Part shown: one piece after another, positions 1,810 through 21,829 of the stretch | Position numbering within the stretch: the first letter of the stretch is position 1 | Layout: each line of letters begins with the position of its first letter | Source: Jatrophihabitans sp. | Lineage (GTDB): Bacteria > Actinomycetota > Actinomycetes > Mycobacteriales > Jatrophihabitantaceae | Reading direction: 5' to 3' | NCBI GenBank assembly: GCA_025924515.1 | Contig: JAICIE010000023.1 | Span: 1 to 34,951, forward strand | Length of the DNA: 34,951 bases | The notes under the pieces: generated by a model | The model's input: only the letters and a program-made list of their open reading frames with translations | Database searches by the model: none | Told to the model about the DNA's origin: nothing | Position numbers and translations under genes: made by a program

Positions 1810-2183
1810 GCGGCGGCTCCAGAGTTCTCGTCGAGAGGCGGTCCGCTCGGCAGGCTACCGGGCAGCGGGCATCGCGGCCTTCTGCACCAAGCCGCGGTGG
1901 AAGGACGAACCGGCACGCCGGCGCCGGCTGAGAAGCGGCGTAAAGGCTCACCAGGCGCGGCTGCTCCCCGGCTCCGGGCCGGCCCTCAGCCGGTCGGGGT
2001 CGCCGCCCGCGGCGGCGCGCCGTGAGCCACAGCGCCGTCGGGTCAGACGAAAACCGGGCCGAAACGCTTGCGGCCCGAACGTCCCGAAGCGCCGGGACGT
2101 TCGTCCCTGTCGCGGCCGCGCGGGCGCAACTGTCATGGGGCCACCGGAGACGGCGTCCGGACGCACGGCATCGGGAGCGTGGC
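1810..2183. other. Intergenic region with two overlapping hairpins
   Basis: This 374-base gap lies between the divergently oriented nucleotidyltransferase and the membrane protein at 2184. I see no convincing gene in it on either strand. It holds the strong hairpin at 2076-2103 and an overlapping weaker one at 2055-2077, described separately. Confidence 0.6.
2055..2103 (+). promoter_or_regulatory. Overlapping inverted repeats in the leader of the membrane protein
   Basis: An 11-bp perfect stem (CGAACGTCCCG at 2076-2086, CGGGACGTTCG at 2093-2103) encloses a 6-base loop. A weaker 6-bp stem (CGGGCC at 2055-2060, GGCCCG at 2072-2077) shares two bases with its left arm, so the two hairpins exclude each other when the outer pairs are formed. 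No T-run follows. It may be an operator, an attenuator or an RNA element about 80 bases ahead of the start codon at 2184. Confidence 0.5.
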
Positions 2184-2861
2184 ATGACGACCCTCAGAGC
2201 AGGCGGTGACCTGGCGCCGCCTCCTGCGCGGACCGGTTCGCTGCCGGCGATCGCGGGCGCTGTCTATGTCGCCGCCTGGCTCGGTGGGCTGGCGGTGCAC
2301 TTCTCGAGTCCTGCCGTCGACGCGCCGGCGAGCGAGATCGGCCGGCATTTCCGTGCGTACGGCACGGCCGCCCTCGTGCAGTCGCTGCTCGTTCACGGCG
2401 TCGCCGGGCTTGCCCTCGGCGTCGTCGCCTGGGCGGTCTCGCGGCGCGCCTCGTATTGGGGGCAACCGGCGACCGGCAACGTCCTGAAGGCGACTGGCTG
2501 GGCCGCGGCGGTGGCATCGCTCGTGCAGATGGCGCTGGGCGTGATACTGGCCGGCGCAGCAGTCAGGATCAGCGACGGCACCGCCAACCGCCTCTTCGAC
2601 GCGGTCAATCAGCTGGACGGCGTCAAGATGTTGCTGCTCGCCGTCATGGTGGCCTGCGGAGTCGCCCTTGCCCGCGCCCGGATCCTGCCGCGCTGGCTCG
2701 GGATCGAGGGAGCGGTCCTGCTCCTCGCGCTCGTCGTCGCCGGCGTGGGATATGCGGCACTGTCCCCCGCGCTGGGGGCCGCGGCCGAGCTGGCGCTGGT
2801 CCTGCTGCTGGTCTGGGTCGGCGCCGCCGGCGTCGCGGCACGGTCGCCGCGGTCGACCTGA
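2184..2861 (+). CDS. Integral membrane protein of unknown function
   Basis: This 225-residue protein has about six membrane-spanning stretches: SLPAIAGAVYVAAWLGGLAV, ALVQSLLVHGVAGLALGVVAW, the segment around AVASLVQMALGVILAGAA, KMLLLAVMVACGVALARA, IEGAVLLLALVVAGVGYAAL and LALVLLLVWVGAAGV. No catalytic motif is visible. The ATG at 2184 is chosen because a GGGAG ribosome site lies 7 bases upstream and the sequence before it is arginine-rich and unlike a membrane protein N-terminus. The general shape resembles small actinobacterial DUF4386-like membrane proteins, but I cannot assign it. It interrupts the glycan island and converges on the GT4 gene ending at 2868. Confidence 0.8.
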   Translation: MTTLRAGGDLAPPPARTGSLPAIAGAVYVAAWLGGLAVHFSSPAVDAPASEIGRHFRAYGTAALVQSLLVHGVAGLALGVVAWAVSRRASYWGQPATGNVLKATGWAAAVASLVQMALGVILAGAAVRISDGTANRLFDAVNQLDGVKMLLLAVMVACGVALARARILPRWLGIEGAVLLLALVVAGVGYAALSPALGAAAELALVLLLVWVGAAGVAARSPRST

Positions 2862-2867
2862 GATACG

Positions 2868-3923
2868 TCACCGGACCGCGACGCCGGCCCGCGCCCGGTC
2901 GAGGACGGCGTACGTCCGCCGCCCCATGAGCGCCGCGTCGAGCCGCTCGGACGCGCGGCGGTGTGCGCGCCCGCCCAGGACGCGGCGGCGCCGCGGGTCG
3001 GCCAGCAGCACGGCGAGAGCGTCGGCCAGAGCCGGAGCGTCCGCGGGCGGGACCACGACCGCGTCCTCCCCCACCGCGTGGGCGACCGCGCCAACGTCGG
3101 TGACCACGCACGGGCGCCCCTCGGCCATCGCCTCGAGGAGCGCGAGGGGCATGGACTCGCGCCGCGACGGGAGGCAGAACAGGTCGAGGTCGGCCAGGAA
3201 GGCGTGCGCGTCGCGGACGAATCCGCAGAAGTCGACGGGCAGCCCCTGCGCCGCGCACCGCAGGAGCGCTTCGTCGCGTCCGGCGCCGCCGATGACCACC
3301 TCCAGCGCGACACCTCGACCGACCAGGATCCGGACGGCGTCGATCAGGACGTCGAACCCTTTCTGGTCGGTCAACCGCCCGAGCGCGCCGATCCGCGGCA
3401 CCGCTCGGCGCGGGAGCGGGCGCGGCGCCGCCGGCACGTCGACCCCGTTCGGGACGACCTCGACCCGTTCCGCCGGGACCCCGAGTTCGGTCAGCAACTG
3501 CCGGCGGCCGTCGAGCGACGGCGTGAGGACGGCCGCCAGGCGTTGGTACAGCGCGGCCAGGCGCTCGCGTCGGGCACCGGTTCCGGTGTCCCCCGACAGG
3601 TGCAGCACTCCGACGGTCGGCGCAACGGCAAGCGCGGCCGCGAGCGCCGCCGCGTTGGAGCCGGGATCGACGAGATTGACCACGACGACGTCCGGGCGGG
3701 TGTCGGCGATGGCGCAGCGCAGTTCGGGCGCCGCGTCGCGATGCCGGGCGAGCGGCACGGTGGTTCCCGGCGTGAAGTCGGAGAACCCGGCCGCCACCGG
3801 CGCCGCGACCACGATCGACGGCGCCCAACCGTTCGGCTGCGCCCGACGCAGCAGGTGGGTGAGATAGACCTCCGCGCCGCCCCACGCGTCGGAGTCGACG
3901 ACGAACGTGACGCGCGAGCTCAC
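2868..3923 (-). CDS. GT4 family glycosyltransferase
   Basis: This 351-residue GT-B fold enzyme has an N-terminal acceptor domain with the GGAEVYL glycine motif (residues ~15-21) and a C-terminal nucleotide-sugar domain. The latter carries VPNGVD (158-162), GRLTDQKGFDVLIDA (182-196) and the retaining EX7E pair in RRESMPLALLEAMAEG (E256 and E264), followed by VVTDVGAVAH. It should transfer a sugar from an NDP-sugar to a growing lipid-linked or surface glycan at the cytoplasmic face. The start is a GTG at 3923; only a weak GC-rich ribosome site is seen. It diverges from the fused glycosyltransferase at 4040, with 116 bases between them that may hold a shared promoter region. Donor and acceptor cannot be read from the sequence. 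Confidence 0.9.
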   Translation of the reverse strand: MSSRVTFVVDSDAWGGAEVYLTHLLRRAQPNGWAPSIVVAAPVAAGFSDFTPGTTVPLARHRDAAPELRCAIADTRPDVVVVNLVDPGSNAAALAAALAVAPTVGVLHLSGDTGTGARRERLAALYQRLAAVLTPSLDGRRQLLTELGVPAERVEVVPNGVDVPAAPRPLPRRAVPRIGALGRLTDQKGFDVLIDAVRILVGRGVALEVVIGGAGRDEALLRCAAQGLPVDFCGFVRDAHAFLADLDLFCLPSRRESMPLALLEAMAEGRPCVVTDVGAVAHAVGEDAVVVPPADAPALADALAVLLADPRRRRVLGGRAHRRASERLDAALMGRRTYAVLDRARAGVAVR

Positions 3924-4039
3924 CCGGCGTCCGGCGGCGTCGCCGGTCCCCCGATCATGGTCGAGCGCACGCCTGCCGCCATGCTGGAAAGTAGATCATT
4001 CGGGGTCGGCCGGGCGGCACGGCCGGGGAGGGGGCGCCG

Positions 4040-5860
4040 GTGGTCGGGTCGGTCGGGCTGCGGCGGGTGGCCGTGCTGATTCCCGTGTACGACCAGTCGG
4101 CGTTCCTGTCCCGCTGTCTGGAGAGCCTGCTCGCGCAGGAGCTGTCGCAGTGGGAAGCGGTCGTCCTCGACGACGGGTCGCCCGACCCGCAGGCGGTGCG
4201 TGCCGCCGTCGGCGCGGTCGCGGATCCCCGACTGAAACTGCTCGGGTGGCCGCACAACCGGGGTCTCGGCGCGACGCTGAATGCCGGGATCGACGCCACG
4301 TCCGCCGCCGTCCTGGCGTATCTCCCGGCCGACGACGTGTGGTCGCCCGACCACCTGGCTCGGCTGCTCGACGCTCTCGCCGACCCGTCGATCGTCGTGG
4401 CCCGGGCGGCGCTGGCCGAGCCGTCGGACACGTCCTACGCGCAGCTGGTGCAGGTCGCACACCGCCGGACGGACGACCGGTGGACCGAGCGAGCGGAGCT
4501 GGAGACCGACGACCTGGACCGGCTGATGTGGCGCCGGGTGTCGGCGCGCGGGAGCTGCGTGGACACCGGGCGGGTCACCTGCGCGTGGACCCGCCATCCG
4601 GGGCAACGCTCCCGTGCGCTGCGGGAGGCGTTCGACGGCGGGCTGAACGTCTTCCGCACCCGGTACCGGGTCGCCGAACCGCTGCGCTTCGCCTCGACCG
4701 ACGGCGGCGATGTCGACGAAGTGGCGCGATATGCCCGGTTCCGCGACCGCAGCTATCCGACGAGTCCGGACGGCCTGGAGATCCTCGTCGTCGGCGAGCT
4801 GGCCTTCAACCCGGAACGGGTGCTCGCGCTGCGCGAACGCGGTCACCGTCTCACCGGGCTGTGGACCGCCGACGGACTCGGTGACGCCACGGTGGGGCCC
4901 CTTCCCTTCGGCCACGTCCTCGACCTGGATCGCGACTCGTGGCAGGACGGCGTGCGCCGGCTGCGGCCGGACGTTCTCTGGGCGCAGCTGAACTGGCGGG
5001 CGGTCCCGCTGGCTGCCGCGGTCCGGGCGGCGTTCCCGCAGCTGCCGTTCGTCTGGCACTTCAAGGAGGCGCCGCAGCGGAGCATCGCCCGCGGCGAATG
5101 GCCGCTGCTGGCGCACCTGGTGTGCTCCGCGGACGCGTGTCTGTTCGCCACCGCGGAGGAGCGCGACTGGTTCGCTCTCGCGCTCCACGGGCGGGTCGAT
5201 CCGGACCGGCTGGGTGTGCTCGACGGCGACCTGCCGAAACGCGACTGGCTCGACGCGCCGGCGACCGCCAAGCTCTCGGCCGAGGACGGCTCGCCGCACA
5301 CGGCCGTGGTCGGCCGCCCGTCCGGGCTGCACGCCGCCTGGCTGCTCGACCTGGCTCGGCGAGGGGTGCATACGCACCTCTACGGACAGGTCCGCGCCCC
5401 GGGGCCGAAGGGCTCCTGGACCGCCTGGCTCGACGAGGCGCTGTCCGGCGCGCCGGGATTCGTGCACCTGCATCCGTCGGTGGGACCGGAGAGCTGGGTG
5501 CGTGAGCTGTCCCGCTACGACGCGGGCTGGCTGCACCGCTTTCGCAGCGACAACGGCGGGGACCTGCGCCGGGCCAGCTGGGACGATCTCAACTCGCCGG
5601 CCCGGCTGCCCGTCCTGCTCGCCGCCGGGTTGCCGGTACTGCAACGGGAGAACCCCGGCTCGCTGGTGTCCGTGGAGCGCGTCGTCCGCCGGGACGCGAC
5701 CGGGCTGTGTTACCGGTCGGCCGAGCACGTGGCGTGGCTGCTGCAGGAGGAGCTGTCGACGCGGTCGGCGGCAGCGGCCGCGCGGGCGGCCCGGGAGCGA
5801 CACACCTTCGACCACCACGCCGACCGGCTGGTGCGGGTGTTCCGGTCCGTCCTGCGCTGA
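4040..5860 (+). CDS. Two-domain glycosyltransferase (GT2 plus GT-B-like)
   Basis: This 606-residue protein starts at a GTG preceded by a purine-rich ribosome site (GGGGAGGGGG, 4025-4034). Residues ~9-230 are a GT-A family-2 domain: VAVLIPVYDQSAFLSRCLESL, VVLDDGSPD, NRGLGATLNAGI, and PADDVWSPDHL, where D98-D99 stands in for the metal-binding DxD. From about residue 246 (LEILVVGELAFNPERVLALRERGH) a second domain begins. It looks like a GT-B glycosyltransferase with HLHPSVGPESWVRELSRYDAGWLHRF and LPVLLAAGLPVLQRENPG near the C-terminus, the place where GT-B enzymes bind the nucleotide sugar. No clear EX7E pair is visible in the second half. The fusion suggests two successive or coordinated sugar transfers by one protein. 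It ends 7 bases before the stop of the converging GT4 gene. Confidence 0.83.
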   Translation: MVGSVGLRRVAVLIPVYDQSAFLSRCLESLLAQELSQWEAVVLDDGSPDPQAVRAAVGAVADPRLKLLGWPHNRGLGATLNAGIDATSAAVLAYLPADDVWSPDHLARLLDALADPSIVVARAALAEPSDTSYAQLVQVAHRRTDDRWTERAELETDDLDRLMWRRVSARGSCVDTGRVTCAWTRHPGQRSRALREAFDGGLNVFRTRYRVAEPLRFASTDGGDVDEVARYARFRDRSYPTSPDGLEILVVGELAFNPERVLALRERGHRLTGLWTADGLGDATVGPLPFGHVLDLDRDSWQDGVRRLRPDVLWAQLNWRAVPLAAAVRAAFPQLPFVWHFKEAPQRSIARGEWPLLAHLVCSADACLFATAEERDWFALALHGRVDPDRLGVLDGDLPKRDWLDAPATAKLSAEDGSPHTAVVGRPSGLHAAWLLDLARRGVHTHLYGQVRAPGPKGSWTAWLDEALSGAPGFVHLHPSVGPESWVRELSRYDAGWLHRFRSDNGGDLRRASWDDLNSPARLPVLLAAGLPVLQRENPGSLVSVERVVRRDATGLCYRSAEHVAWLLQEELSTRSAAAAARAARERHTFDHHADRLVRVFRSVLR

Positions 5861-5867
5861 GATGCGC

Positions 5868-7079
5868 TCACTCGGCGACCTCGCGGTAGAGGTGGACCAG
5901 GTCGGCGGCGTGCGCGGCGGGGTCGTGCCGCTCCCGAACCCGGGCCCAGCCGGCGGCGCCCATGCGCGCGCCCTCCCCGGGCGCCGCGACCAGTCGCGCC
6001 AGCGCCGCGGACAGCTGCGGCGCGCTTCCCGGCGGGACCAGCACCCCGGTGACGCCGTCCTCGACCAGCTCGGGGATCCCGCCGATCCGCGAGGCGACGA
6101 CCGGGACGCCCTGCGCAGCCGCTTCCAGCACCGCCATCGGGCAGTTCTCCTCCCACAGTGCCGGCAGGACGGCGGCGGTCGCGCCGCGCAGCTGCGCGGT
6201 GACCTGGTCGGGAGGCAGCGGGCCGAGCAGGTCGACCGATAACCGCTGCGCGGCCACCCGGGCTCGGACCTGCTCGGCTCGGCGTCCGGAGCCGACCAGC
6301 CGGAGGCGCACGCCCGCCGGGAGCGTTGCGGCCGCGGCGAGGAGGACGTCGATGCCCTTCTCGCCCACCAGCCGGCCCGCGTAGACGAGGTAGGGCGGCT
6401 GGTCGGGCGCGGGCCGAGGCGCGGGTGCGGCCGCCACCGGGTTGGGGAGCACCCGCATCCGGGCGGCCGGCAACCCGGCCTCGACCATCCGGTCGCGCAG
6501 GAAGGCGCTGGGCGCTACGAACCGGTCGACCCGGCGGTAGAGGCCACGGGCCTGACCGGCGTACGCGTCGACGGCTGCCGCGACCGACCGCCAGCGCGAC
6601 CCCTCGAGGCATCCGTGGCGCGCGACCTCGAGATATCGGCCCGCCAGGCACCGCGTGCACGGCTCGCCGTGCACGAAGAAGCGGTAGTTCGGACAGCCCG
6701 GCTTGTAGTCGTGCAGGGTCATGACCGTCGGCACGCGGCGGCGCCGCAGCGCGTCGAGCACCGACGTGGTCAGCCGTTCGAAGATGTGGTGCACGTGCGC
6801 CACGTCCGGACGGACCCGGTCGATCACCTCCGACAGTGCGCGGTAGGCGCGCGGTGACCAGACGCCGGCCCAGGCCTCGCCGAACCGGGTCCGCGACCCG
6901 TCCCCCGCCGCCCGGGGCAGCAGGTCGCGCACCGGCGTGGGGAGGCTGTCGGCCTCCGCAATTGCGAACGGGATGACCTCGTGCCCGCTCGCCGCGAGGA
7001 CCTGCGCGGTGAGGACGAGCATGGTTTCCGCCCCGCCGGGGCCCTGGGTCCAGTGATTGCCGACGAGCAGCACCCGCAC
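5868..7079 (-). CDS. GT4 family glycosyltransferase with Cys-rich insert
   Basis: This 403-residue retaining GT-B enzyme has the N-terminal GPGGAETM loop (residues ~13-20), VAHVHHIF, then HDYKPGCPNYRFF followed by GEPCTRCL. That gives four cysteines (C129, C141, C144, C157) typical of one actinobacterial GT4 subgroup, possibly binding metal. The C-terminal domain carries YAGRLVGEKGIDVLL, the EX7E pair E311/E319 in WEENCPMAVLEA, and SRIGGIPELVEDGVTGVLV. The GTG at 7079 is chosen because it starts the first beta strand, lies two bases after the stop of the upstream dehydrogenase gene, and has an AAGGAAA ribosome site inside that gene's last codons. It is the third gene of an apparent operon (Gfo/Idh, MDR, GT4) and probably transfers the sugar those enzymes help to make. 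Confidence 0.9.
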   Translation of the reverse strand: MRVLLVGNHWTQGPGGAETMLVLTAQVLAASGHEVIPFAIAEADSLPTPVRDLLPRAAGDGSRTRFGEAWAGVWSPRAYRALSEVIDRVRPDVAHVHHIFERLTTSVLDALRRRRVPTVMTLHDYKPGCPNYRFFVHGEPCTRCLAGRYLEVARHGCLEGSRWRSVAAAVDAYAGQARGLYRRVDRFVAPSAFLRDRMVEAGLPAARMRVLPNPVAAAPAPRPAPDQPPYLVYAGRLVGEKGIDVLLAAAATLPAGVRLRLVGSGRRAEQVRARVAAQRLSVDLLGPLPPDQVTAQLRGATAAVLPALWEENCPMAVLEAAAQGVPVVASRIGGIPELVEDGVTGVLVPPGSAPQLSAALARLVAAPGEGARMGAAGWARVRERHDPAAHAADLVHLYREVAE

Positions 7080-7081
7080 TA

Positions 7082-8194
7082 TCAGGTTTCCTTCGCAAAG
7101 CGCAGGACCGCTTGCAGGACGTGACGGCGCCGAGCCGCCAGGCCGGTGAGGAATGCCGGTCCGTCCTCGAAGTCGACGAGATCGGTGACGAGGTGGCGGC
7201 GGATGTCGGCGCCGCGCGCACGCAGCAGGTCCAGGGTCGCCGCAGCCAGCGCCTGCCGCGGCCAGGTGTCTGCCATGCCGCGCGGGACCCGGGCGATCTG
7301 GGCGCAGATCACGGCGAGGCCGTTGTGGTGGAACTCCTCGCCGAAGCGGACGTTCGGCGCCGCGCCCTGGTAGAAGGCAAGGTCGACGACGGCTCCCTGC
7401 GGTCGCAGCGATTTCAACGCGGTGGCCAGTGACGTGTCGTGGCCGCGGCACTGCAGCGCGAGATCCGCCCCATGGTCGCCGCGACCGTGGTGCCAGCGGC
7501 GCTTGACTTCGAGCCAGCCGTCGCCGTCCTCGTCGGCAACCGTCGACAGTCCCAGCGCCTGGGCCACCGTGCGCCGCTCGGCGGACGGTTCGGCCACCAG
7601 GACGTCCGCGGCTCCGTGCAGGACGGCCAGCAGCGCCGTGAGGATCCCGATCACGCCGGCGCCGGTGACGAGCACCGCCTTGCCGCGAACGCCGGCGGCG
7701 AGATCGGCGGCGGGGCCGGCCGACGCGGCGGCAGCGTGCAGGAGGCCGTTGACGCAGATCGGGCCGAGCTGGGCGAGATAGATGCCGAGGAGCGGGTCGA
7801 GGTCGTCGGGGATCGGGACGACGACCGCGTCGGCGGGATCGACGCAGCGGCCGGTCTGGTGTCCGTAGGCGGTCGCGATCAGGGCGCCCTCGGCGAGCGA
7901 GGCGGTACGGCTCTCGGTGACCCGGGCGACCTCCATGTAGCCGAGCCCGCGGAGCGGATACCCGGCGACCGGCAGGCCGGCGCCGAACGACCGCAGCTCG
8001 CGGTCCCACCCGACCTGATGATGCGGGTCGGTGCCGCGGACGAGCGCGACCTCGGTTCCGGCACTGATTCCGCTCCACTCCGTGCGCACCCAGGCCTGGC
8101 CGCGCCCGGGCTCGGGTTCGGCAACGTCGACAAGTGCCGGGCGGTACGGCGCCTCCACCCCGATGGAGCGGACGGGCCGTCCTGGGGATATCAC
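7082..8194 (-). CDS. MDR-superfamily alcohol dehydrogenase-like oxidoreductase, apparently lacking the usual catalytic zinc Cys
   Basis: This 370-residue medium-chain dehydrogenase has a GroES-like N-terminal part with EWSGISAGTEVALVRG (residues ~39-54). In zinc enzymes a Cys stands in this strand; the SAGTE form is typical of the BchC/bi-domain group without it. The NAD(P)-binding motif is VLVTGAGVIG (residues 174-183) and a late FHHNGLAVICAQI segment follows. Its GTG start overlaps the stop of the Gfo/Idh gene in a GTGA, so the two are translationally coupled, and two bases separate it from the GT4 gene. It should oxidise or reduce a sugar or cyclitol hydroxyl with NAD(P). In many polysaccharide clusters a single protein combines this MDR domain with a Gfo/Idh domain; here they are separate genes. 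Confidence 0.85.
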   Translation of the reverse strand: MISPGRPVRSIGVEAPYRPALVDVAEPEPGRGQAWVRTEWSGISAGTEVALVRGTDPHHQVGWDRELRSFGAGLPVAGYPLRGLGYMEVARVTESRTASLAEGALIATAYGHQTGRCVDPADAVVVPIPDDLDPLLGIYLAQLGPICVNGLLHAAAASAGPAADLAAGVRGKAVLVTGAGVIGILTALLAVLHGAADVLVAEPSAERRTVAQALGLSTVADEDGDGWLEVKRRWHHGRGDHGADLALQCRGHDTSLATALKSLRPQGAVVDLAFYQGAAPNVRFGEEFHHNGLAVICAQIARVPRGMADTWPRQALAAATLDLLRARGADIRRHLVTDLVDFEDGPAFLTGLAARRRHVLQAVLRFAKET

Positions 8195-9198
8195 CGCGCG
8201 GCGGGAAGGGCGAGCAGCGGGGCGTCGTTCGCAGCGGCCGCCGCGACCGCGGTCACCAGTCGGTGCGTGCGCAGCGCCTCGGCGTACGGGGCGCGGATCG
8301 AGTCGGATTCCCCGCGGACTGCGGCCACGAAGACCCGGTCCTCGGCGAGCAGCGGGTCCTCCCGTCGCTGGATCGTGCGCTCACCGTCGGCGTCGGAGAG
8401 CACGAGCTGGTGCTCGGTCAGACAGAGCGCCAGTCCCGGCGCAGCGATCTCCAGGCCGATGCGAAAGCCCCGCGGCAGCAGGCAGCTGTTCGAGAAGGTA
8501 CCGACGGCTCCGGTGTCGAATCGCAGCGAAGCTGTGCAGGCGTGCAGGATGTCGCCGGGCCCGTCCGGCGAGCGCGAGCCGAGGACGTACCCGCCGGCGA
8601 CCTCGCCGACCAGGACCCGGGCCAGGTCGAACAGGTGAGTGGCCTGCTCGACCGTCTGCCCCCCGGACTGCTGTTGGCGGGCCCACCAATCGACCCGGGG
8701 AGCCTTGTCCAGCCAGGCTCCGAGCGCCATCACCGCGGGCCGGTCCGCGAGCAGATCGCGGGCCCGATCGACGGTGTCGAGATAGCGCCAGTGATAGCCG
8801 ACTGCGGTGACGAGGCCGGTCCGCTCGATCTCGGCGGCGAGCTGCTCGGCGGTCTCCAGGTCGGCCGCCAGCGGTTTCTCGACGAAGATCGGCAATTTCC
8901 GCTCGATGGCCGCCTGCTCGATGGCGCCATGCTGGTACGGCGGAACGCAGACGTACAGGGCGTCGAGTTCCTCGCTTTCCAGCAGGTGTTCCCAGCTCTC
9001 GTAGGTCCGCGCGCCGGTCAGCTCGGCGAGCCGCTGGGCACGGTCGATCCGTGGATCAGCCACTGCGCATACCCGGACCCCGTCCTGCGCGCTGAGCGAC
9101 TCGGCATGTCGGCCGCCGATGAATCCGGCACCCAGCAGCCCGACGCGAAGGGTCACCAGGCGCCCCGTACCGGACCGCTGCCGTGAGCTGGTGTCCAT
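8191..9198 (-). CDS. Gfo/Idh/MocA family oxidoreductase
   Basis: This protein has the Rossmann motif VGLLGAGFIGGRHAE (GAGFIG at residues 23-28), the DALYVCVPPYQHG strand and the catalytic-lysine motif FVEKPLA (EKP 107-109). The helix EQATHLFDLARVLVG (H188, D191) matches the family's GG...H..D element. Such enzymes oxidise or reduce sugars, amino sugars or inositols with NAD(P). The ATG at 9198 gives 335 residues; a GTG at 9156, 14 residues downstream, is the closer fit to the family N-terminus (TLRVGLLGAG), and neither has an obvious ribosome site. It is the first gene of the operon that continues with the MDR dehydrogenase and a GT4 enzyme. Confidence 0.88.
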   Translation of the reverse strand: MDTSSRQRSGTGRLVTLRVGLLGAGFIGGRHAESLSAQDGVRVCAVADPRIDRAQRLAELTGARTYESWEHLLESEELDALYVCVPPYQHGAIEQAAIERKLPIFVEKPLAADLETAEQLAAEIERTGLVTAVGYHWRYLDTVDRARDLLADRPAVMALGAWLDKAPRVDWWARQQQSGGQTVEQATHLFDLARVLVGEVAGGYVLGSRSPDGPGDILHACTASLRFDTGAVGTFSNSCLLPRGFRIGLEIAAPGLALCLTEHQLVLSDADGERTIQRREDPLLAEDRVFVAAVRGESDSIRAPYAEALRTHRLVTAVAAAAANDAPLLALPAAR

Positions 9199-9534
9199 TT
9201 CGCCGGGAACCGCACGAGGCGAGTTTATGGTCCTGCATTCGACGCGCGATCGAACGGGTGTGGGCGGTCAGCCCAGTTCCGCTGCCGGGCGGGTGCGCCG
9301 CGGAGCAGGCAAGCACAGAACCGGATGCTGCAGGATCGGACGGGACGACGAAATGGACATCGGGCTGCGTTCGCCGCGCCGATCCGGCAATCAGGAATCC
9401 GAAGAATCGCTCGCGGGCCGAGTGAGGGCCGTCACCGACGGTGAACCGCACCCACGCGCCCCACGTCTTCGGGTTGTCGGCGCGCCACCGAAGCAATGGG
9501 CTTCCCGGCCGCCGCTGACAAGGAGCGTGGATTC
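9199..9534. other. Intergenic region between divergent genes
   Basis: This 336-base gap should hold promoters for the sugar oxidoreductase operon and the lipoprotein. I see no secure promoter. On the minus strand, from 9496 downwards, about 80 codons have coding-like third positions (RWRADNPKTWGAWVRFTVG and following) but match nothing I recognise. They may be the remnant of a lost gene. Confidence 0.4.
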
Positions 9535-10098
9535 ATGAAACACAATTCGAAGGGTCTGCGGGCGGCACTTGCACTTACGGGCGCCGCGGCTGCGACGGCG
9601 CTCGCCCTGGCCGGCTGCGCAAGCTCGGGCAGCGGCGCGACCGCCGCGGCGGCACCGGCACACCAAGCGCATTCGTCAGCGACCCCGCAGGTGCGGATCG
9701 AGACTCGAAGTGGCTCCCTCGGCGTTCACTTGACCGACGCGTCCGGCAGATCGCTGTACATGTTCGGCTCGGACCGTCCGACCGCGTCTACCTGCGTCTC
9801 CGCGTGCGCGACCTACTGGCCCCCGCTGGCCGCGAAAAGCGGCGCGGTGTCGGTTGCCGGAGCCGCGAAGCGCGCGGATATCGGCACGGTCCGGCGCGCC
9901 GATGGCTCCACGCAGGACACCTACGCCGGGCACCCCTTGTACTACTACGTCGGCGATACCAAGGCCGGTCAGGCCAACGGTCAGGGCTTGACCGACTTCG
10001 GCGCCCGGTGGTCGCTGGTCACGCCGGCGGGCGAGCCCGTCGGCGCCGGCGGCTCATCCCCGACCTCCGGCTACGGCGCCGGTGGGCCGGCCTGGTGA
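9535..10098 (+). CDS. Secreted-repeat (PF03640-type) lipoprotein
   Basis: This 187-residue protein starts at an ATG with an AAGGAG ribosome site 9 bases upstream. It has a lysine-bearing signal peptide and a lipobox (LALAGC, Cys at about residue 27), so it should be lipid-anchored outside the membrane. After a Ala/Ser-rich linker there are two copies of the 'secreted repeat of unknown function': LGVHLTDASGRSLYMFGSDRPTASTC...CATYWPPL, and IGTVRRADGSTQDTYAGHPLYYYVGD ending in FGARWSLVTPAG. The Cys pair between the halves may form a disulfide. Function of the family is unknown, though members are often found near redox or envelope genes. The tail is Gly/Ser-rich. Confidence 0.88.
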   Translation: MKHNSKGLRAALALTGAAAATALALAGCASSGSGATAAAAPAHQAHSSATPQVRIETRSGSLGVHLTDASGRSLYMFGSDRPTASTCVSACATYWPPLAAKSGAVSVAGAAKRADIGTVRRADGSTQDTYAGHPLYYYVGDTKAGQANGQGLTDFGARWSLVTPAGEPVGAGGSSPTSGYGAGGPAW

Positions 10099-10377
10099 GC
10101 GATGTCGCCCGACCCCCGGGACGCCGGGCGTCATGCCGGCGCCGGAGCGGCGTGCGTCCGCTGTGAGGGAACCGCATCACTGAGGCTGTGCTGAGCCCAA
10201 CGACCCGATTTCACAGGACGTTAGGCACTGGCCCTGGGCGAGGGGCGCGTTCTCTGATGACCTCGTCGAGCGGGTCGCGCCGTGCTGATGCGGCCCGTAC
10301 GGCAGCCGAACAGGAATCCTGGCTCACGCGACCGGCGGAGGGGTGGGTCGGCAGCGGACCGACGGGGAGGTGCGCCG
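10099..10377. other. Intergenic region before the membrane protein/PAP2 pair
   Basis: A GC-rich inverted repeat (CGCCCG at 10106-10111, CGGGCG at 10125-10130) lies just after the lipoprotein stop and could help end its transcript; no T-run follows. I see no gene in the gap. Confidence 0.35.
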
Positions 10378-11466
10378 ATGAGCACGAGCGTCGTACGGGA
10401 CCGCCGCCGCATACCGGGGCGGCAAGCGCTCGGGCCGTTGCTCTCCTTGGCCATCGTTGTGGCGGTCTTCTGGTTCTTCCTCCCGCAGTTCACCAGCGTC
10501 TCCGCGGTGTGGTCGTCGGTCACTTCCATGAACGGCGCCCTCTTGGCCCTGTTGTGTGTCACCGCCCTGTGGAACCTCGCCACCTATTGGCTGGTGATGG
10601 CCGCCACGATGCCCGGACTGACCTATCCGCAGGCGGCCGTCGTCACGGAGGCGACGACGGCCGTCTCGAACACCGTTCCAGCGGGCGGCGCCGTCGGGAT
10701 CGCGTTGAGTTACTCGATGTACTCGTCCTGGGGGTTCTCCCGCAATCGCAGCTCGGTGTCATTGCTGGTGTCGGGCGTCTGGAACAACTTCGCCAAGCTG
10801 GCCATGCCGGTCGCGGCGCTCGTCCTGCTGGCGTTCACCGGCGGTGGCGGCGGAAGCGCACGGATCGTCGCCGGCTGCCTGGGCGTCGCCGGACTCGCCG
10901 GCGCGGTCGTCATCTTCGGGCTGCTGCTGCGCAGCCGCGAGTCCGCGCACCGGATCGGGGTCGGCGCCGGCCGGGCCGCCTCCGCGGTTCTTCGCATCCT
11001 GCACCGCCCGGCGGTGTCGGGATGGGAGCGGGCAACCGTCAAATTCCGCGATCGGACCGTCCTTCTCCTGCGCGCTCGATGGCTGCGAATCAGCGTGACG
11101 ACCATCGTCAGCCACCTCTCCCTCTTCCTCGTCCTCCTGCTGTCCCTGCGCGCGGTCGGTGTGGCCGACAGCGAGGTTGCGTGGGCGGAGGCGCTCGCGG
11201 TCTTCGCCTTCGCGCGGCTCCTTACCGCGATTCCGCTGACGCCGGGTGGGCTCGGCGTCGTCGAGGTCGCCCTCATCACGGGCATGGCGGCGGCCGGAGG
11301 CGTTCGCGCGGAGGTCGCGGCGGGAGTGCTGGTGTTCCGCGCGCTGACCTACGTCCTGCCCATCCCGCTCGGCCTCGCGGCATATCTCTTCTGGCGTCGG
11401 AACACGTCGTGGCGCCGGCCGGTGAACAGCGCGCCGCGCACCGAGCTGGTTCCCGAATCGGCATGA
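10378..11466 (+). CDS. Lysylphosphatidylglycerol synthase TM-region (UPF0104)-like membrane protein
   Basis: This 362-residue polytopic protein starts at an ATG with a GGGGAGG ribosome site. The N-terminal strand of helices includes LGPLLSLAIVVAVFWFFLPQF, ALLALLCVTALWNLATYWLVMAA, and the family-typical TEATTAVSNTVPAGGAVGIALSY (residues ~82-104). It continues with VSGVWNNFAKLAMPVAALVLL and the conserved late segment TAIPLTPGGLGVVEVALITG, a hallmark of this family. Full MprF proteins flip aminoacylated lipids through this membrane part; this protein lacks the aminoacyl-transferase domain, so a lipid-flippase or transport-like role is an inference. Its stop codon overlaps the start of the PAP2 gene (ATGA), pointing to a joint role in lipid processing. 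Confidence 0.87.
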   Translation: MSTSVVRDRRRIPGRQALGPLLSLAIVVAVFWFFLPQFTSVSAVWSSVTSMNGALLALLCVTALWNLATYWLVMAATMPGLTYPQAAVVTEATTAVSNTVPAGGAVGIALSYSMYSSWGFSRNRSSVSLLVSGVWNNFAKLAMPVAALVLLAFTGGGGGSARIVAGCLGVAGLAGAVVIFGLLLRSRESAHRIGVGAGRAASAVLRILHRPAVSGWERATVKFRDRTVLLLRARWLRISVTTIVSHLSLFLVLLLSLRAVGVADSEVAWAEALAVFAFARLLTAIPLTPGGLGVVEVALITGMAAAGGVRAEVAAGVLVFRALTYVLPIPLGLAAYLFWRRNTSWRRPVNSAPRTELVPESA

Positions 11467-12152
11467 GGGGCACCCCGCTCGCGGGGGACGCCGAACGCGT
11501 AATCCGGGCACCGGCCGACGCACTGCTCGGGCTGGCCGGAGCGGCGATCTTCGTCCTCTGTGCGCTGCCGATTCATCGCACGTCCGCGAGCGGCGCGGAG
11601 ACGTCGGTTTTCCGTGCGATCAACGATCCCACCGTCGTGCCCTTCGTCGTCGTCTGGCCGTTCATGCAGCTGGGCAATTTCCTGGTGATTCCGGTTGCGG
11701 CATTTCTCGCCGCGGCTTTCCGGCGCTGGCGGTTGGCGATCGCTTCGGCCGTGGGCGGAATCACCGCCTACCTGGTCGCCGGCGACGTCGTGCGCCGGTT
11801 GATCGTGCGAGGGCGTCCGCTGGCACTGCTGAACGATGTCCACGTCCGCGGAGCTCCCGCGCACGGGCTCGGCTTTGTCTCCGGGCACGTCGCGGTCTCC
11901 ACGACGCTGGCCGTCGTCGCGTGGCCCTACTTGGGCCGGCGTCTACGGTCGGTCATCGCCGTGGTCCCGGTGCTCGTGGCGCTCGCGCGGGTCCACGTCG
12001 GTGCGCACATGCCGTTGGACGTGCTCGGCGGCGCCGCCTTGGGACTTCTGGTCGGCAGCGTGGTGCGCCTCGCTCTCGGACGGCCGGAGGCACTGAGGAA
12101 CCGTCCAGGCGACCACGACAGGGACGAGGTGGCGCGCGGGCGCCCGGAGTAG
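11463..12152 (+). CDS. PAP2-family membrane phosphatase
   Basis: This 229-residue membrane protein carries the three PAP2 motifs. Motif 1 is RRLIVRGRP (KX6RP form with Arg for Lys), motif 2 is FVSGHVAVS (SGH), and motif 3 is ARVHVGAHMPLDV (RX5HX3D). These make a pocket that removes phosphate from lipid phosphates such as phosphatidic acid, PGP or isoprenyl diphosphates at the outer membrane leaflet. Hydrophobic segments flank each motif. The ATG at 11463 overlaps the preceding gene's TGA, giving translational coupling with the LPG-synthase-TM-like protein. The last 25 residues are charged and hydrophilic. The lipid acted on cannot be read from the sequence. Confidence 0.9.
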   Translation: MRGTPLAGDAERVIRAPADALLGLAGAAIFVLCALPIHRTSASGAETSVFRAINDPTVVPFVVVWPFMQLGNFLVIPVAAFLAAAFRRWRLAIASAVGGITAYLVAGDVVRRLIVRGRPLALLNDVHVRGAPAHGLGFVSGHVAVSTTLAVVAWPYLGRRLRSVIAVVPVLVALARVHVGAHMPLDVLGGAALGLLVGSVVRLALGRPEALRNRPGDHDRDEVARGRPE

Positions 12153-13930: not shown

Positions 13931-14228
13931 GCACAAACATCCGCCGAAACCCGCCGAATAGGTCGGGTAATTACGAAGGAACGGATCTCAGTCATACACA
14001 TCGCAGAACGGTCGGTGCCGCGAGCGAAAGAGGCCTTCGCCTTCTTGCCTGAGCGCAGCCTGAAGGTGTGCAATGGCCGGTGTCTCAGCGACCGTCAGCA
14101 AATTCGCCGGTGCCGACACCGATGTGGCGCTCCTCGGGTTCTGCCCGCGGGCGGAACGCTACGTCGACAATTGAGCGTTGCCCACGGCGGGCCTATTGCG
14201 GCTCTCCTCAGAGCGCGAGTTGTGCGAG
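13931..14228. other. Intergenic region with a 33-codon ORF
   Basis: This stretch lies ahead of the PAP2-like/kinase gene. It contains one small ORF at 14073-14174 (33 codons, starting MAGVSATVSKFAGADTDVAL) with a GAAGGTG element about 5 bases before its ATG. It could be a leader peptide or a remnant. No other gene is seen. Confidence 0.3.
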
Positions 14229-16427
14229 ATGAGTTCCTTCGAACGACTCGACGCGCCCGGCCAGTGGCGGGCGTATCCGGTGGGCACCGCCGCTCCCGCA
14301 CGGACCCGCCGTCGGCGTCGGCCTTCCGGTGAGCCGCCGCCGCTGCCGCGCCACGTGCGCAGCAGTGGGCTGTGGTGGCTGGTCGGCACGTGCGCGTTCG
14401 TGCTGGTCGCCATCGCGGCCTTCGCCGGGCAGTGGGACATTCGGGCGGCCGCCGTCACGGTCGGCGACGACGCGGTCGTCCGGCTGCTGTCCGCACCGTC
14501 GTTTCCCGGTTACCGCGGTGCCATGCAGGTTCTGGCCGCGCCCGGCCATCCCGTTTTCCTGACCACGGTTCTCTGGACGTTGGTGGTTGCGCTCGCCGTC
14601 CTGCGGCGATTCCGGCACCTGATCGTCTTTATCGTGGCATGGACGCTGACGGCACAGGTCTACTTCGTCATGGTCGCAGCTACCCGTCGACCCCGCCCGT
14701 TCGGCGTTCGGTTCCGCGGCGCCTGGGAAGGCTGGGCGCTGCCGTCGCTGCGCGTCGGCGTGTTCGCTTCCCTGTGCGTCATCGTCCTGTACACGTTGGT
14801 GCCCGAGGGACGCTGGCGCAATCGCGCCAAGTGGGCCGCCGCCGCGGCGGTCGCACTCGTCGCGGTGGGGCGGATGGCGCTCGGGGTCGAAGCGCCGTTC
14901 GACGTCCTTGTCGGGGTCTTGATCGGCGTGACCATCTCTCTCGTCGGGTTTCGGGTGTTCGCTCCGTCCGAGGTCTTTCCGGTCAGGTACCGGGGTGGCA
15001 ACGCGGCTCATCTCGACGTCGGTGGCGCTCGCGGTCAGGCCATTCGCTCCGCGTTGGAATGTCAACTCGGGTTTCGGGTGGGGGCGCTCGAGCCCTTCGG
15101 GCTCGCCGGCTCGGCCGGATCGACGCCCCTCAAGATCACGCTCGCGGACGAAACCGACTCGGTGGTCTTCGGAAAGCTGTATGCGCGCACGCATCTGCAG
15201 TCTGACCGCTGGTACAAGCTGGGGCGGGAATTGTTGTACGGCCGGCTCGAGGACGAGAAGCCGTTCAACAGCGTGCGCCGCCTCGTGCAGCAGGAGGACT
15301 ACGCCCTCCGGCTCTTTCGCGACAACGGTCTGCCGACACCGGCGCCGTACGGCGTGGTGGAGCTCACCCCGGAGCGGGAGTACCTGCTCGTCACAGAATT
15401 CCTCGACGGCGCTGTAGAGATGGGCGACGCCGAGGTCACCGACGAGATAATCGATTCAGGGCTCGCCGTGGTCCGCAGGATGTGGGACGCCGGCCTCGCG
15501 CACCGCGACGTCAAGCCGTCCAACCTCCTCGTCCGGGCAGGCCAGGTTCGGCTCATCGACGTGGCCTTCTCCGAGCTACGACCGACGCCGTGGCGACAGG
15601 CGGTCGACCTGGCCAACATGATGCTCTGCCTGGCCCTTCGGTCTGGCCCCGAGTTGGTGTACGAACGCGCATTGCGCCAATTCACCGTCGCCGAGATCGG
15701 TGAGGCGTTCGCCGCAGCGCGCGGTCTCGCCCTGCCGTCGCAGCTGCGGCGGGCACTGCAGGAGCAGGGCCTGGACCTGCACGCACAGTTCGTGCGGCTT
15801 TTACCGACGCCGCCGCGTCCCGTTTCGATCCAACGCTGGAATGCGCGGCGGATGGCGCTGTGGGCTCTCGTGTTGGCCGCCGTCTTCCTCGTGACGCAGG
15901 ACCGGTCCGCGTTCACCCTGAACGACGAGAGCACCACATCCCTCGGGATTGGCAACCTCGGCTGTCGGGACTGGTCTCCCCTGTGGCTCGAGGCGCAAGC
16001 CGTGCCGTCCGCGACCTTCGTCCCGTGCGTACGGTCACTGCCCACCGGGTGGAGCTTTGCGCGAGCCGACGCCAGGAACGGCTCCGCGGAATACGTTCTC
16101 GATCACGACCGGGCGGGGAGCGCAGCGGTGAACGTCCGACTCGGTGAGCACTGCGATGTTACGGGCCTTCGGCCGCTCGAATCGGGCAGCGACCGGATAC
16201 GCCGGTTCCAGGGACCGGCCAGCTCGACCACGCGCACGTGGTACGACACGTTCAGGGGCGGATGCGCGACGGTGACGGTGCACTCGGCGAGCACGAATAG
16301 CGACGTCAAGTCGCAACTGGCGCATGAGACTTCCCATGTGGTCGGGTATGCCAGCCGGCGGACGCTGCAACAGGTGCTATCGGATCGGTCAAATGGTCAA
16401 CTGAGCCTCGACCCGTCCACGAAGTGA
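14229..16427 (+). CDS. Transmembrane protein: degenerate PAP2 domain, RIO-like kinase domain, extracellular Cys-containing domain
   Basis: The protein has 732 residues from the ATG at 14229 (an upstream TTG at 14178 is possible). Residues ~45-240 form a five-to-six-helix membrane domain laid out like PAP2, but its catalytic motifs are changed: the SGH position reads PSLRV (~171-175) and the RX5HX3D motif reads R215...E221...D225, with Glu for His. Residues ~280-530 form a RIO/AarF-like kinase: a candidate ATP lysine in VVFGKLYA (K316), HRDVKPSNLL (H425, D427, K429, N432) and LIDVAF (D444, the metal-binding Asp). A single membrane helix follows (~542-556), then an extracellular domain of ~175 residues with four cysteines. 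The kinase therefore lies in the cytoplasm between two membrane anchors. A sensory or lipid-linked kinase role is an inference. Confidence 0.8.
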   Translation: MSSFERLDAPGQWRAYPVGTAAPARTRRRRRPSGEPPPLPRHVRSSGLWWLVGTCAFVLVAIAAFAGQWDIRAAAVTVGDDAVVRLLSAPSFPGYRGAMQVLAAPGHPVFLTTVLWTLVVALAVLRRFRHLIVFIVAWTLTAQVYFVMVAATRRPRPFGVRFRGAWEGWALPSLRVGVFASLCVIVLYTLVPEGRWRNRAKWAAAAAVALVAVGRMALGVEAPFDVLVGVLIGVTISLVGFRVFAPSEVFPVRYRGGNAAHLDVGGARGQAIRSALECQLGFRVGALEPFGLAGSAGSTPLKITLADETDSVVFGKLYARTHLQSDRWYKLGRELLYGRLEDEKPFNSVRRLVQQEDYALRLFRDNGLPTPAPYGVVELTPEREYLLVTEFLDGAVEMGDAEVTDEIIDSGLAVVRRMWDAGLAHRDVKPSNLLVRAGQVRLIDVAFSELRPTPWRQAVDLANMMLCLALRSGPELVYERALRQFTVAEIGEAFAAARGLALPSQLRRALQEQGLDLHAQFVRLLPTPPRPVSIQRWNARRMALWALVLAAVFLVTQDRSAFTLNDESTTSLGIGNLGCRDWSPLWLEAQAVPSATFVPCVRSLPTGWSFARADARNGSAEYVLDHDRAGSAAVNVRLGEHCDVTGLRPLESGSDRIRRFQGPASSTTRTWYDTFRGGCATVTVHSASTNSDVKSQLAHETSHVVGYASRRTLQQVLSDRSNGQLSLDPSTK

Positions 16428-18897: not shown

Positions 18898-19089
18898 CGT
18901 CGAACCCGCCCGCGCGAACCGACATATGGTCAGCGCGGCGATCGCCCGGAAGATGAGGTTGACGACGGCTCGGGGCGTGTTCTCCAACATTGTCTCGGTC
19001 TGCCGGGATGGCCTGTCAGGGGGCAGCGTGAGCCACCCGGCCGGTCAGTCGCGCCGGCGAAATCGCCAGTGGAAGTTGGCATGCCTTTC

Positions 19090-19095
19090 TAGACT
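19090..19095 (+). promoter_or_regulatory. -10 box for a leaderless LAL regulator mRNA
   Basis: TAGACT lies 7 bases before the GTG at 19103, the distance expected when transcription starts at the initiation codon. No ribosome site is present, which fits a leaderless start. The -35 region is not convincing. Confidence 0.4.
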
Positions 19096-19102
19096 GGCGC
19101 CC

Positions 19103-21829
19103 GTGATTCACGGCCGGGAACGTGAGCTGGCGATCGTCGCCGATCTCGTCGACCGCGCACGCCGGTCGCAGGGCGGTGCTCTGGTGATTCACGGCGAGGC
19201 CGGAGTCGGGAAGTCGACGTTGCTCGCGGCCGCCCGTCAGCACGCACCGGACCTCCGCGTGCTGGCGACCCGCGGCGTGGAATCGGAAGCGCCGTTGGCG
19301 TTCGCGGCACTGCACCGCCTGCTGCGACCGGTGTGGAGGTATGTCGACGGGCTACCGCGTCCCCAAGCCCGCGCGTTGCGAGCAGTCTTCGGAGAAGGGG
19401 ACACCGCCGCGGTCGACCGGTTTCTGATCTTCTTGGCGACGTTGAGCGTCCTGGCGGAAACGGCAGCGAACGAACGCCCCGTCCTGATCATCGCCGACGA
19501 TGCCCAGTGGCTCGACGAAGCGTCGGCCGCGGCGCTGCTCTTCGCGGCCCGCCGGATCGAGGCCGATCCGATCGCTGTGCTGTTCGGCGTCCGGGACGGC
19601 GACGGCCCGGGTTTCGCCGTCGCCGACCTCCCGGGCGTCCCGATCGGCAGCCTCGAGAATGACGCAGCTCGTCATGTGCTGAATGACCGGGCGGGACAGC
19701 TTGTCGACGAGGAAGTTGTCGGCCAATTGGTCAGGGCGACGGGCGGAAACGCGCTCGCGCTGACCGAGCTGGCCGGCGCGTTGACCGCGGACCAATTGGC
19801 CGGACAGGTTCCGTTGCCGGATTCCCTGCCGGTGACGGAGGGCATCGAAAAGGCGTTTCTCGCCCGATATGACCGGCTCCCGCCGGAAGCCCGAACCGCG
19901 GTGCTTGTCGCTGCCGCGGATGACTCCGGACGCGTGCAGACGGTCCGCCGAGCGGTGAGCGCGCTGGGGCTAGCCCCGGAGGCGTTGGACGCGGCCGAAG
20001 GGTCCGGGCTGGTGTCGGTGGCGGACGGGACCGTCGACCTGCGCCATCCGCTCGTCCGGTCGGCCGTGTACCGGTCGGCCGGGACGTCGCGGCGCCGGCA
20101 GATCCACGTGGCGCTCGCCACCGCGCTCGATGCGGACGGCGACTTCGAACGGCGTGTCTGGCACCGGGCCGCGGCCGTGGAGCAACCGGACGACCAGTTG
20201 CTGCAGGACCTCGACACGGTCGCCGAGGCGGCAGCACGCCGGGGCGGTCACGAGGCTGCGTCCGCCGCATGGGAGCGGGCCGCCGAACTCACCGTCGCAG
20301 CCGGACCTCGGGCGCAGCGGCTGTTTCAGGCCGCCCAGTCGAGTTGGCTCAGTGGCAACCCGGTGCGGGGAAGAGTGCTGGCCCGCTCCGCCGAACGCGA
20401 CGCGACGGATCTCCTCCTGCGCGTTCATGTGCACCGGCTGCTCGGTCAGATCGAGTGGAACACCACATCGTTGAACGGCGGATATGCCCATATCGTCCGA
20501 GCCGCTCAACTCGCGGCCGGGGTGGATGACGCGCTCGCCCGGCAACTCGCCATGCTGGCGGATTCGCTCGCGGCGTGGGGAGCGACCGGCGCAACCGGAC
20601 CCGATCCGGTCTCGCTGTTGCCGCCCCTGCCTCCCGACGCGCCGCCGACCGTGCGGGCCACGATGCATCTGTTGGACGGGTTCCGCGCGGTCGCTCGCGG
20701 GCTCTGGGTGAACGCGGCGGAGGCCTTCCGGAGCGCCTTTTCCCTCCTGGAACGTTCGGACGTCAGCAGCGATCACATCCTGCATCCCAACCTCGGGATT
20801 GCGACGCTGCACATCGACGACGATGTCCGAGGACTTGAGCTGCACACCGAAGAGCTCATCGCCGCGCGGCAGTCCGGCGCGCTGACGATGGCGGAGCACG
20901 CGTTGACCCGCGCGTTCGGTTTCCAGCTTGCGACGGGCGCCTGGGCTGAGGCGTCGGCTGCAGCCACAGAGGCCCTCGACCTGGCGGCCAGCATCGGGCA
21001 CAGCGGCTTGGCGGCATTACCCAACGCGCAGCTGGCTGTGATGGCAACGCTGCGGGGCGACGGTGCGGCCGAGCGGTATCTGGCGAACGCAACGGCGATC
21101 CGTGATACGCATCCGCTCGGAATCATCGATCTCCTGGTGACCGATTTCATGCACTGGGCGCGTGGCATACGCGAGGGCGCGAACGCGACGGCCGCGGTCA
21201 ATCACCTCGAGCGGATAACCTCGCCACCGGTGCAGCGACTGGCCGCCCTCGACCGCGTCGAGGCTGCAGTGCGGGCCGGGCGCGCCGACCTCGCCGGGCA
21301 GTGGCATGCCGAGCTCACCGAATTCGCGGAGGGAACCGGTGTGCCGTTCGCGAGGGCGGCGAGCGAACACGCAGCCGCGCTGCTGGCAGACCCGGATTCG
21401 GCGGAGAGCCATTTCCAGCTGGCAATGCACGCGCACCGCAACTCTCTGCGATTGCCGGACCGGGCCCGAACCCAGCTTGCCTACGGCGAATTCCTGCGGC
21501 GGGCCGGGCGCCGTGTCGACGCCCGGGAGCATCTGCGGGCGGCACTTGCGACCTTCGAGGAATTGCGCGCTCCCGCCTATGCGGAGCGCGCAGCGCAGGA
21601 GTTGCGGGCCTCCGGCGAAACCGCGCGCCGCAACAAGACCAATTCGGAAGGGTCGCTCACCCCGACCGAGCTTCAGGTCGCACGGCTGGTCGCACAGGGC
21701 TTGCCCAACCGCGACGTCGCCGCGCAATTGTTCGTCAGTCCGCGAACCGTCGACTTCCACCTGCGCAACGTCTACGCGAAGAAGGGAATCAGCTCTCGCG
21801 GGGAGCTGGCCCGCGTGCCCCTCGGATGA
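19103..21829 (+). CDS. LAL-type LuxR-family transcriptional regulator with ATPase domain
   Basis: This 908-residue protein starts at the GTG of VIHGRERELAIVADL, the usual LAL opening. An AAA/NACHT-like ATPase follows, with Walker A GEAGVGKSTLL (residues ~31-41) and Walker B VLIIADDAQWLDEASAAALL (~127-146). A long helical TPR-like middle part comes next, and the C-terminal LuxR helix-turn-helix (residues ~852-900): LTPTELQVARLVAQGLPNRDVAAQLFVSPRTVDFHLRNVYAKKGI, where SPRTVDFHL is the recognition helix. Such proteins act as ATP-driven activators of secondary metabolism or transport. It converges on the MFS exporter gene, an arrangement that hints at, but does not show, control of that exporter. 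An ATG at 18926 would add an unlikely basic extension. Confidence 0.92.
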   Translation: MIHGRERELAIVADLVDRARRSQGGALVIHGEAGVGKSTLLAAARQHAPDLRVLATRGVESEAPLAFAALHRLLRPVWRYVDGLPRPQARALRAVFGEGDTAAVDRFLIFLATLSVLAETAANERPVLIIADDAQWLDEASAAALLFAARRIEADPIAVLFGVRDGDGPGFAVADLPGVPIGSLENDAARHVLNDRAGQLVDEEVVGQLVRATGGNALALTELAGALTADQLAGQVPLPDSLPVTEGIEKAFLARYDRLPPEARTAVLVAAADDSGRVQTVRRAVSALGLAPEALDAAEGSGLVSVADGTVDLRHPLVRSAVYRSAGTSRRRQIHVALATALDADGDFERRVWHRAAAVEQPDDQLLQDLDTVAEAAARRGGHEAASAAWERAAELTVAAGPRAQRLFQAAQSSWLSGNPVRGRVLARSAERDATDLLLRVHVHRLLGQIEWNTTSLNGGYAHIVRAAQLAAGVDDALARQLAMLADSLAAWGATGATGPDPVSLLPPLPPDAPPTVRATMHLLDGFRAVARGLWVNAAEAFRSAFSLLERSDVSSDHILHPNLGIATLHIDDDVRGLELHTEELIAARQSGALTMAEHALTRAFGFQLATGAWAEASAAATEALDLAASIGHSGLAALPNAQLAVMATLRGDGAAERYLANATAIRDTHPLGIIDLLVTDFMHWARGIREGANATAAVNHLERITSPPVQRLAALDRVEAAVRAGRADLAGQWHAELTEFAEGTGVPFARAASEHAAALLADPDSAESHFQLAMHAHRNSLRLPDRARTQLAYGEFLRRAGRRVDAREHLRAALATFEELRAPAYAERAAQELRASGETARRNKTNSEGSLTPTELQVARLVAQGLPNRDVAAQLFVSPRTVDFHLRNVYAKKGISSRGELARVPLG

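Follow-up and report, generated by a model that had tools for sequence, protein, structure and literature searches.

A gene in the soil bacterium Jatrophihabitans sp. (contig JAICIE010000023.1, positions 1 to 34,951, the whole stretch analysed and hereafter called the window) encodes a fused protein in which a membrane domain of PAP2 fold, devoid of both catalytic histidines, is followed by a kinase domain, a single transmembrane helix, and a four-cysteine ectodomain. The protein is real and conserved and constitutes a variant of a little-studied actinobacterial family, for which no published description of either the protein or its gene set was found in the literature. Its anatomy and its partnership can be stated with high confidence. 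As to function, it is tentatively proposed on the basis of sequence, at a probability of roughly 45%, that it supplies the kinase to a module acting on envelope lipids, whose other members would be a flippase-like protein, a PAP2 phosphatase, and an outside sensor.

Domain architecture of the fused protein

The whole protein was modelled by AlphaFold with a mean pLDDT of 90.6 and a pTM of 0.86 (88-row alignment). The model comprises a PAP2 helix bundle, the kinase, the single helix, and a beta-rich ectodomain with cysteines at positions 579, 600, 642, and 679 (Table 1). This bears out the order of PAP2 domain, kinase, one helix, and outside domain that an earlier note on this DNA had proposed, and the residues named there all lie at the positions given (PSLRV at 172–176, E221, K316, H425-R426-D427, K429, N432, and D444). 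In the predicted topology, the kinase would lie on the cytoplasmic side of the membrane, whereas the ectodomain and what was once the PAP2 active site would face outward. A longer open reading frame beginning at an alternative in-frame TTG start at 14178 is possible. An assembly or frameshift artefact was considered as the source of the fusion and ruled out because the fused form recurs in other genomes, at 54–66% identity; among those that carry it are L042, L017, L043, G326, G340, and Acidimicrobiia MAGs.

Table 1. Features of the fused protein and of the flippase and phosphatase genes in the window
Feature	Position	Strand	Basis
LPG-synthase-TM/UPF0104 flippase-like protein	10282..11466	+	PF03706, 79 bits (cut-off 33.4)
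PAP2 phosphatase with intact SGH and His motifs	11463..12152	+	PF01569, 46 bits
Fused PAP2-like/kinase/TM/ectodomain protein, 732 aa plus stop	14229..16427	+	ORF intact
Pseudo-PAP2 membrane domain, residues 44–250, six TM helices	14358..14978	+	Pfam, PgpB profile match, model helices
Degenerate PAP2 motif 2, PSLR for PSGH	14742..14753	+	aligned to SGH of YodM
Degenerate PAP2 motif 3, RMALGVEAPFD, His to Glu221	14871..14903	+	family alignment
Kinase domain, residues 280–525, RIO/Bud32/Kdo-like, predicted cytoplasmic	15066..15803	+	PF06293, catalytic residues, PDB folds
Single TM helix, residues 539–557	15843..15899	+	model helix; hydropathy and loop charges
Four-Cys ectodomain, residues 579–732	15963..16424	+	conserved Cys; model pLDDT 93.9

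A degenerate PAP2 domain

The Pfam PAP2 score of the window protein, 25.4 bits, falls just below the cut-off of 27.2, and the family profile matches Bacillus PgpB/YodM (5jki, 6fmx) at E 2e-12. In the resulting alignment, the SGH stands opposite L-R and the motif-3 histidine opposite Glu221. The loss of PAP2 chemistry expected by the earlier note appears, from the alignment, to extend to the entire family: among 107 relatives, some of them near-identical, the motif-2 histidine position (175) holds proline in 100 and histidine in none, and position 221 holds aspartate in 97, glutamate in 6, and histidine in none, i.e., both catalytic histidines are absent from all 107. Compared with an active PAP2 lipid phosphatase, the window protein therefore has the fold without the SGH and motif-3 histidines; it also lacks the motif-1 lysine while retaining the motif-1 Arg156 as well as Ser173, Arg215, and Asp225. 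Near-invariant residues of the domain across the family are Arg127, Arg156, Trp166, Pro172, and Arg197. Its median dN/dS, 0.19 as opposed to 0.14 for the kinase domain (59 close pairs of relatives, in which synonymous changes may be near saturation), indicates purifying selection. Since both histidines are missing throughout while the domain itself is conserved, PAP2 chemistry was probably lost long ago and the domain has presumably retained a job. It may sense a lipid, as the earlier note proposed.

The kinase domain

The nearest Pfam family of the kinase domain is Kdo/WaaP (PF06293), matched at 24.7 bits against a cut-off of 21.3 with partial coverage (59–186 of 207); the RIO1, Pkinase, and APH scores are all below cut-off. 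Among NCBIfam models, the window protein scores far below the cut-off of the Kdo kinase equivalog (PRK01723.1), reaches 26.5 bits against 125 for the Bud32/KEOPS equivalog, and only 11.9 bits against 450 for PknB, which places it outside the Bud32/KEOPS equivalog and the receptor Ser/Thr kinases as these models define them. Foldseek groups the kinase model with RIO (RIOK1), Bud32/PRPK, and Ser/Thr kinases. A function like that of the Kdo/WaaP enzymes, with an LPS core sugar as the substrate, is unlikely because Actinomycetota are not known to make LPS.

The key residues of the kinase, noted earlier as being all in place in the window, are equally kept by its relatives: K316, H425, R426, D427, K429, N432, and D444 are invariant in 107 of 107 proteins, and the kinase should accordingly be live as judged by these residues. 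The invariance of the seven catalytic residues over a broad tree, together with the low dN/dS of the domain, makes it very improbable that the kinase domain survives only as a structural relic in a protein that serves as a scaffold, a role which the Mycobacteriaceae and Streptomyces tri-domain relatives with both sites dead, described below, must nevertheless play.

The activation segment is approximately 15 residues long, counted between D444 and Asp459, the conserved aspartate that follows it; it contains no APE motif, and the Bud32-like chain 8k20_B aligns gaplessly through it. A segment this short and devoid of an APE motif, as in 8k20_B, argues against a typical peptide kinase. It thereby bears on the main rival to a lipid substrate, namely a protein substrate. 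According to this possible but less favoured explanation, the fused protein is a receptor-type signalling kinase, in which an envelope signal is picked up by the ectodomain, along with an orphan binding protein, the pseudo-PAP2 domain serves as a lipid sensor or as an anchor, and the target of the kinase is a protein, most likely the flippase or some regulator. The model does have the layout of a receptor kinase, an outside domain joined by a helix to a cytoplasmic kinase, and with its membrane domain it resembles mycobacterial MviN, whose kinase domain is dead and regulatory (PMC12599244); HRDxKxxN and its lysine are as in Ser/Thr kinases, and the lipoprotein form of the ectodomain and the orphan OpuAC-type protein found beside many relatives resemble sensory parts. 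Besides the short activation segment, however, the nearest Pfam family being one of LPS sugar kinases and the recurrent partners being lipid enzymes rather than regulators both speak against a receptor kinase.

The ectodomain and its fused and separate states

When 84,980 genomes, each representing one species, were scanned, 80 named loci turned up in Geodermatophilaceae, Frankiales, Virgisporangium, and Acidimicrobiia, and whole-genome searches added more. In 85 of 102 loci, a stand-alone gene that immediately follows the kinase gene encodes the ectodomain, with a lipobox in 81 of the 85, and in 17, the window included, the ectodomain is fused to the kinase. The four cysteines are kept in 101–102 of the 102. 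Within the order, 24 of 299 genomes contain the ectodomain, all of which also carry the kinase. On a quick tree of the PAP2–kinase part (LG+G4), the fused and split states require four changes, three of them forced by well-supported branches, and hence at least three to four changes, each of which may have been a fusion or a split; the window protein belongs to a supported four-member fused clade nested among split relatives. Such repeated changes between the two states argue for a physical partnership of kinase and ectodomain. A sister subfamily (L037–L040) possesses neither an ectodomain gene nor an operonic flippase, suggesting that the kinase can work without both.

The cysteine ectodomain represents an undescribed family. 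None of its members hits a curated family in Pfam, the ectodomain profile finds no match among PDB sequences, and comparison of the model with PDB folds gives no significant match, the best being Apa at E 0.004, followed by RseB and PsbP, all with TM below 0.45.

Gene neighbourhood

Genes of the neighbourhood were called with an in-house codon-position script and cross-checked with six-frame profile matches. Two genes, 2–4 kb upstream of the kinase gene, encode the flippase-like protein and the PAP2 phosphatase of Table 1 and overlap by 4 bases. The former scores 360 bits to the operonic protein of locus L002 and belongs to the same subfamily as the operon partner of the relatives. The latter carries the intact motifs FVSGH and ARVHVGAHMPLD, and its best NCBIfam match is the undecaprenyl-diphosphatase SepP at 55.5 bits, below the cut-off of 250; none of the window's proteins reaches the curated cut-off of any polyprenyl-lipid enzyme. 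Between this pair and the kinase gene lies an opposite-strand LysR gene, so that kinase, flippase, and phosphatase do not form one operon in the window. The earlier note had taken the LPG-synthase-TM module to be replaced by the single helix and the ectodomain. This does not hold, since the module is present as a separate gene of the window, and the ectodomain corresponds instead to a separate lipoprotein gene that lies between kinase and flippase in most relatives. A scan for promoters and terminators gave no more than chance.

The usual set in the relatives consists of an OpuAC-type binding lipoprotein (usually divergent), the kinase, the ectodomain lipoprotein, the LPG_synthase_TM protein, and often one or two PAP2 phosphatases, and is conserved across Geodermatophilaceae, Frankiales, and Acidimicrobiia. 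Of the split loci, 38 span 9 kb or more; among these, the OpuAC substrate-binding protein is found in 31, the flippase in 31, and an SGH-bearing PAP2 protein in 18. The OpuAC protein (PF04069) stands beside the kinase in most split loci and upstream of the fused genes in Acidimicrobiia. Throughout L045–L116, this orphan lipoprotein of glycine-betaine type steadily adjoins the kinase gene, and most loci have no adjoining ABC permease or ATPase.

The OpuAC partner is not beside the kinase gene of the window; the single OpuAC protein of the same genome, whose assembly is 82.6% complete, is encoded at C6:27600-28391, within an open frame of 620 residues; it shows 34% identity and is possibly part of a normal transporter. 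Elsewhere in this genome, further LPG-TM genes occur on contigs 11, 31, and 114, and no PAP2-kinase-LPG fusion was found. The recurrent binding protein raises a further explanation, in which the gene set serves uptake: the OpuAC-type protein and the ectodomain deliver a solute, the flippase-like protein transports it, and the kinase traps this small molecule or head group by phosphorylation. Although the position of the OpuAC gene next to the kinase in most split loci would suit such a pathway, it is improbable given that the gene set includes no ABC permease or ATPase, that UPF0104 proteins are linked to lipids, that PAP2 phosphatases are a misfit, and that the window cluster is devoid of a binding protein.

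Other genes of the window were also recorded. Upstream of the flippase/phosphatase pair, positions 1087–9198 hold envelope-glycan genes, i.e., those for a MobA-like NTP transferase, two GT4 and one GT2 glycosyltransferases, a zinc dehydrogenase, and a GFO/IDH oxidoreductase. A lipoprotein with the secreted repeat PF03640 is encoded just before the flippase gene (9496–10098), and a large LuxR-type regulator with an AAA_16 NTPase domain at 18926–21829. In one Acidimicrobiia MAG, an ABC1/UbiB-type kinase gene (L065:8171-10132) comes after the fused kinase-ectodomain gene.

The wider tri-domain family

PAP2-kinase-LPG-synthase-TM fusions (TIGR00374 flippase-like), of which the earlier note knew in actinobacteria, occur across the phylum Actinomycetota. 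Their profile is collinear with that of the window family (hhalign 99.9%, E 9e-35, 26% identity over 441 columns), and the two share the PAP2-kinase order as well as a DE.PF....R region before the kinase helix. Some of them (L129, L130, L131, and L133) appear from their motifs to combine an active PAP2 domain, an active kinase, and LPG-TM in one chain. The window protein, in contrast, has a dead PAP2 domain, its flippase is encoded by a separate gene, and a cysteine ectodomain follows. Homologues with intact SGH and His motifs in the same position, which the earlier note held to be incompatible with its reading, thus do exist in these distant fusions; none is found in the protein's own family. 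In other tri-domain relatives, apparently belonging to Mycobacteriaceae and Streptomycetaceae (L134–L138, L140, L141, L147–L151, L153, and L154), both catalytic sites have been lost while the proteins are kept as conserved ones, and part of the wider family must therefore work without catalysis.

Complementary losses are seen in the neighbours of fused window-type genes. The fused gene closest to that of the window is immediately followed by L042:8214-9623, which encodes a live PAP2 domain with its SGH in place, joined to a pseudokinase that reads HRA where HRD is expected; in L077 a protein composed of a dead PAP2 domain, a pseudokinase, and LPG_TM lies beside the fused gene. These losses and the collinear profiles point to a single ancestral unit of kinase, phosphatase, and flippase, from which the activities may later have been divided among partners, the direction of evolution being inferred.

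A candidate envelope-lipid module and its relation to known systems

The short activation segment, the affinity to Kdo and Bud32 kinases, and the lipid-enzyme partners favour a lipid or lipid-linked substrate. Against such a module stand the sister subfamily L037–L040, the LysR gene that parts the kinase gene from flippase and phosphatase in the window, the missing OpuAC neighbour there, the tri-domain relatives with both sites dead, and the fact that no window protein scores above a polyprenyl-lipid cut-off. In the lipid cycle that is tentatively envisaged here, the kinase would work at the inner leaflet and phosphorylate such a substrate, which might be a polyprenol or a glycolipid, with the pseudo-PAP2 domain holding the lipid. 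The UPF0104 protein would then move the lipid across the membrane and the PAP2 enzyme would remove a phosphate outside, while the cysteine domain, joined in many relatives by the orphan OpuAC-type binding protein, would report on or dock the outer-leaflet side. A bolder version, in which phosphorylation inside and dephosphorylation outside drive UPF0104 transport as an ATP-driven vectorial cycle, the dead PAP2 domain acting as membrane receptor and the cysteine ectodomain as outside gate, is unlikely.

The surprising part is a conserved set with kinase and phosphatase predicted on opposite faces of the membrane and an undescribed ectodomain that has repeatedly switched between being fused and being separate. 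The role of UPF0104 proteins as lipid flippases is predicted and in most cases not proven (PMC5898192, PMC12713373). For most of them, little is known of the cargo or of the energy source, and the gene set described here ties the family to a kinase and to a phosphatase predicted to work across the membrane from it. Tri-domain relatives are spread over Actinomycetota and apparently extend to Mycobacteriaceae and Streptomycetaceae, so that a function established for the window protein would help in reading those as well.

Several known systems share individual features with the window protein. Bacillus PgpB/YodM resemble its first domain in membrane fold and motif spacing, and differ from it in possessing the motif-1 lysine and both catalytic histidines. 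RIO, Bud32, and Kdo/WaaP kinases share the minimal kinase fold, the short activation segment, and the full catalytic set, whereas the window kinase is membrane-embedded and features a family-specific DRWYKLGR..LYGRLEDE between the ATP lysine and helix C. The flippase-like neighbour matches PF03706 just as MprF and the UPF0104 proteins YbhN and GpgF do; unlike in those systems, no LPG synthase domain, glycosyltransferase, or deacetylase partner is directly adjacent in the window. In mycobacterial MviN, the ectodomain comes after MurJ and a pseudokinase. This layout of a lipid-handling membrane domain, a cytoplasmic kinase fold, and an ectodomain is similar to that of the window protein, but the likeness is one of analogy only: MviN has MurJ in place of PAP2, its kinase domain is dead and regulatory (PMC12599244), and its ectodomain is unrelated.
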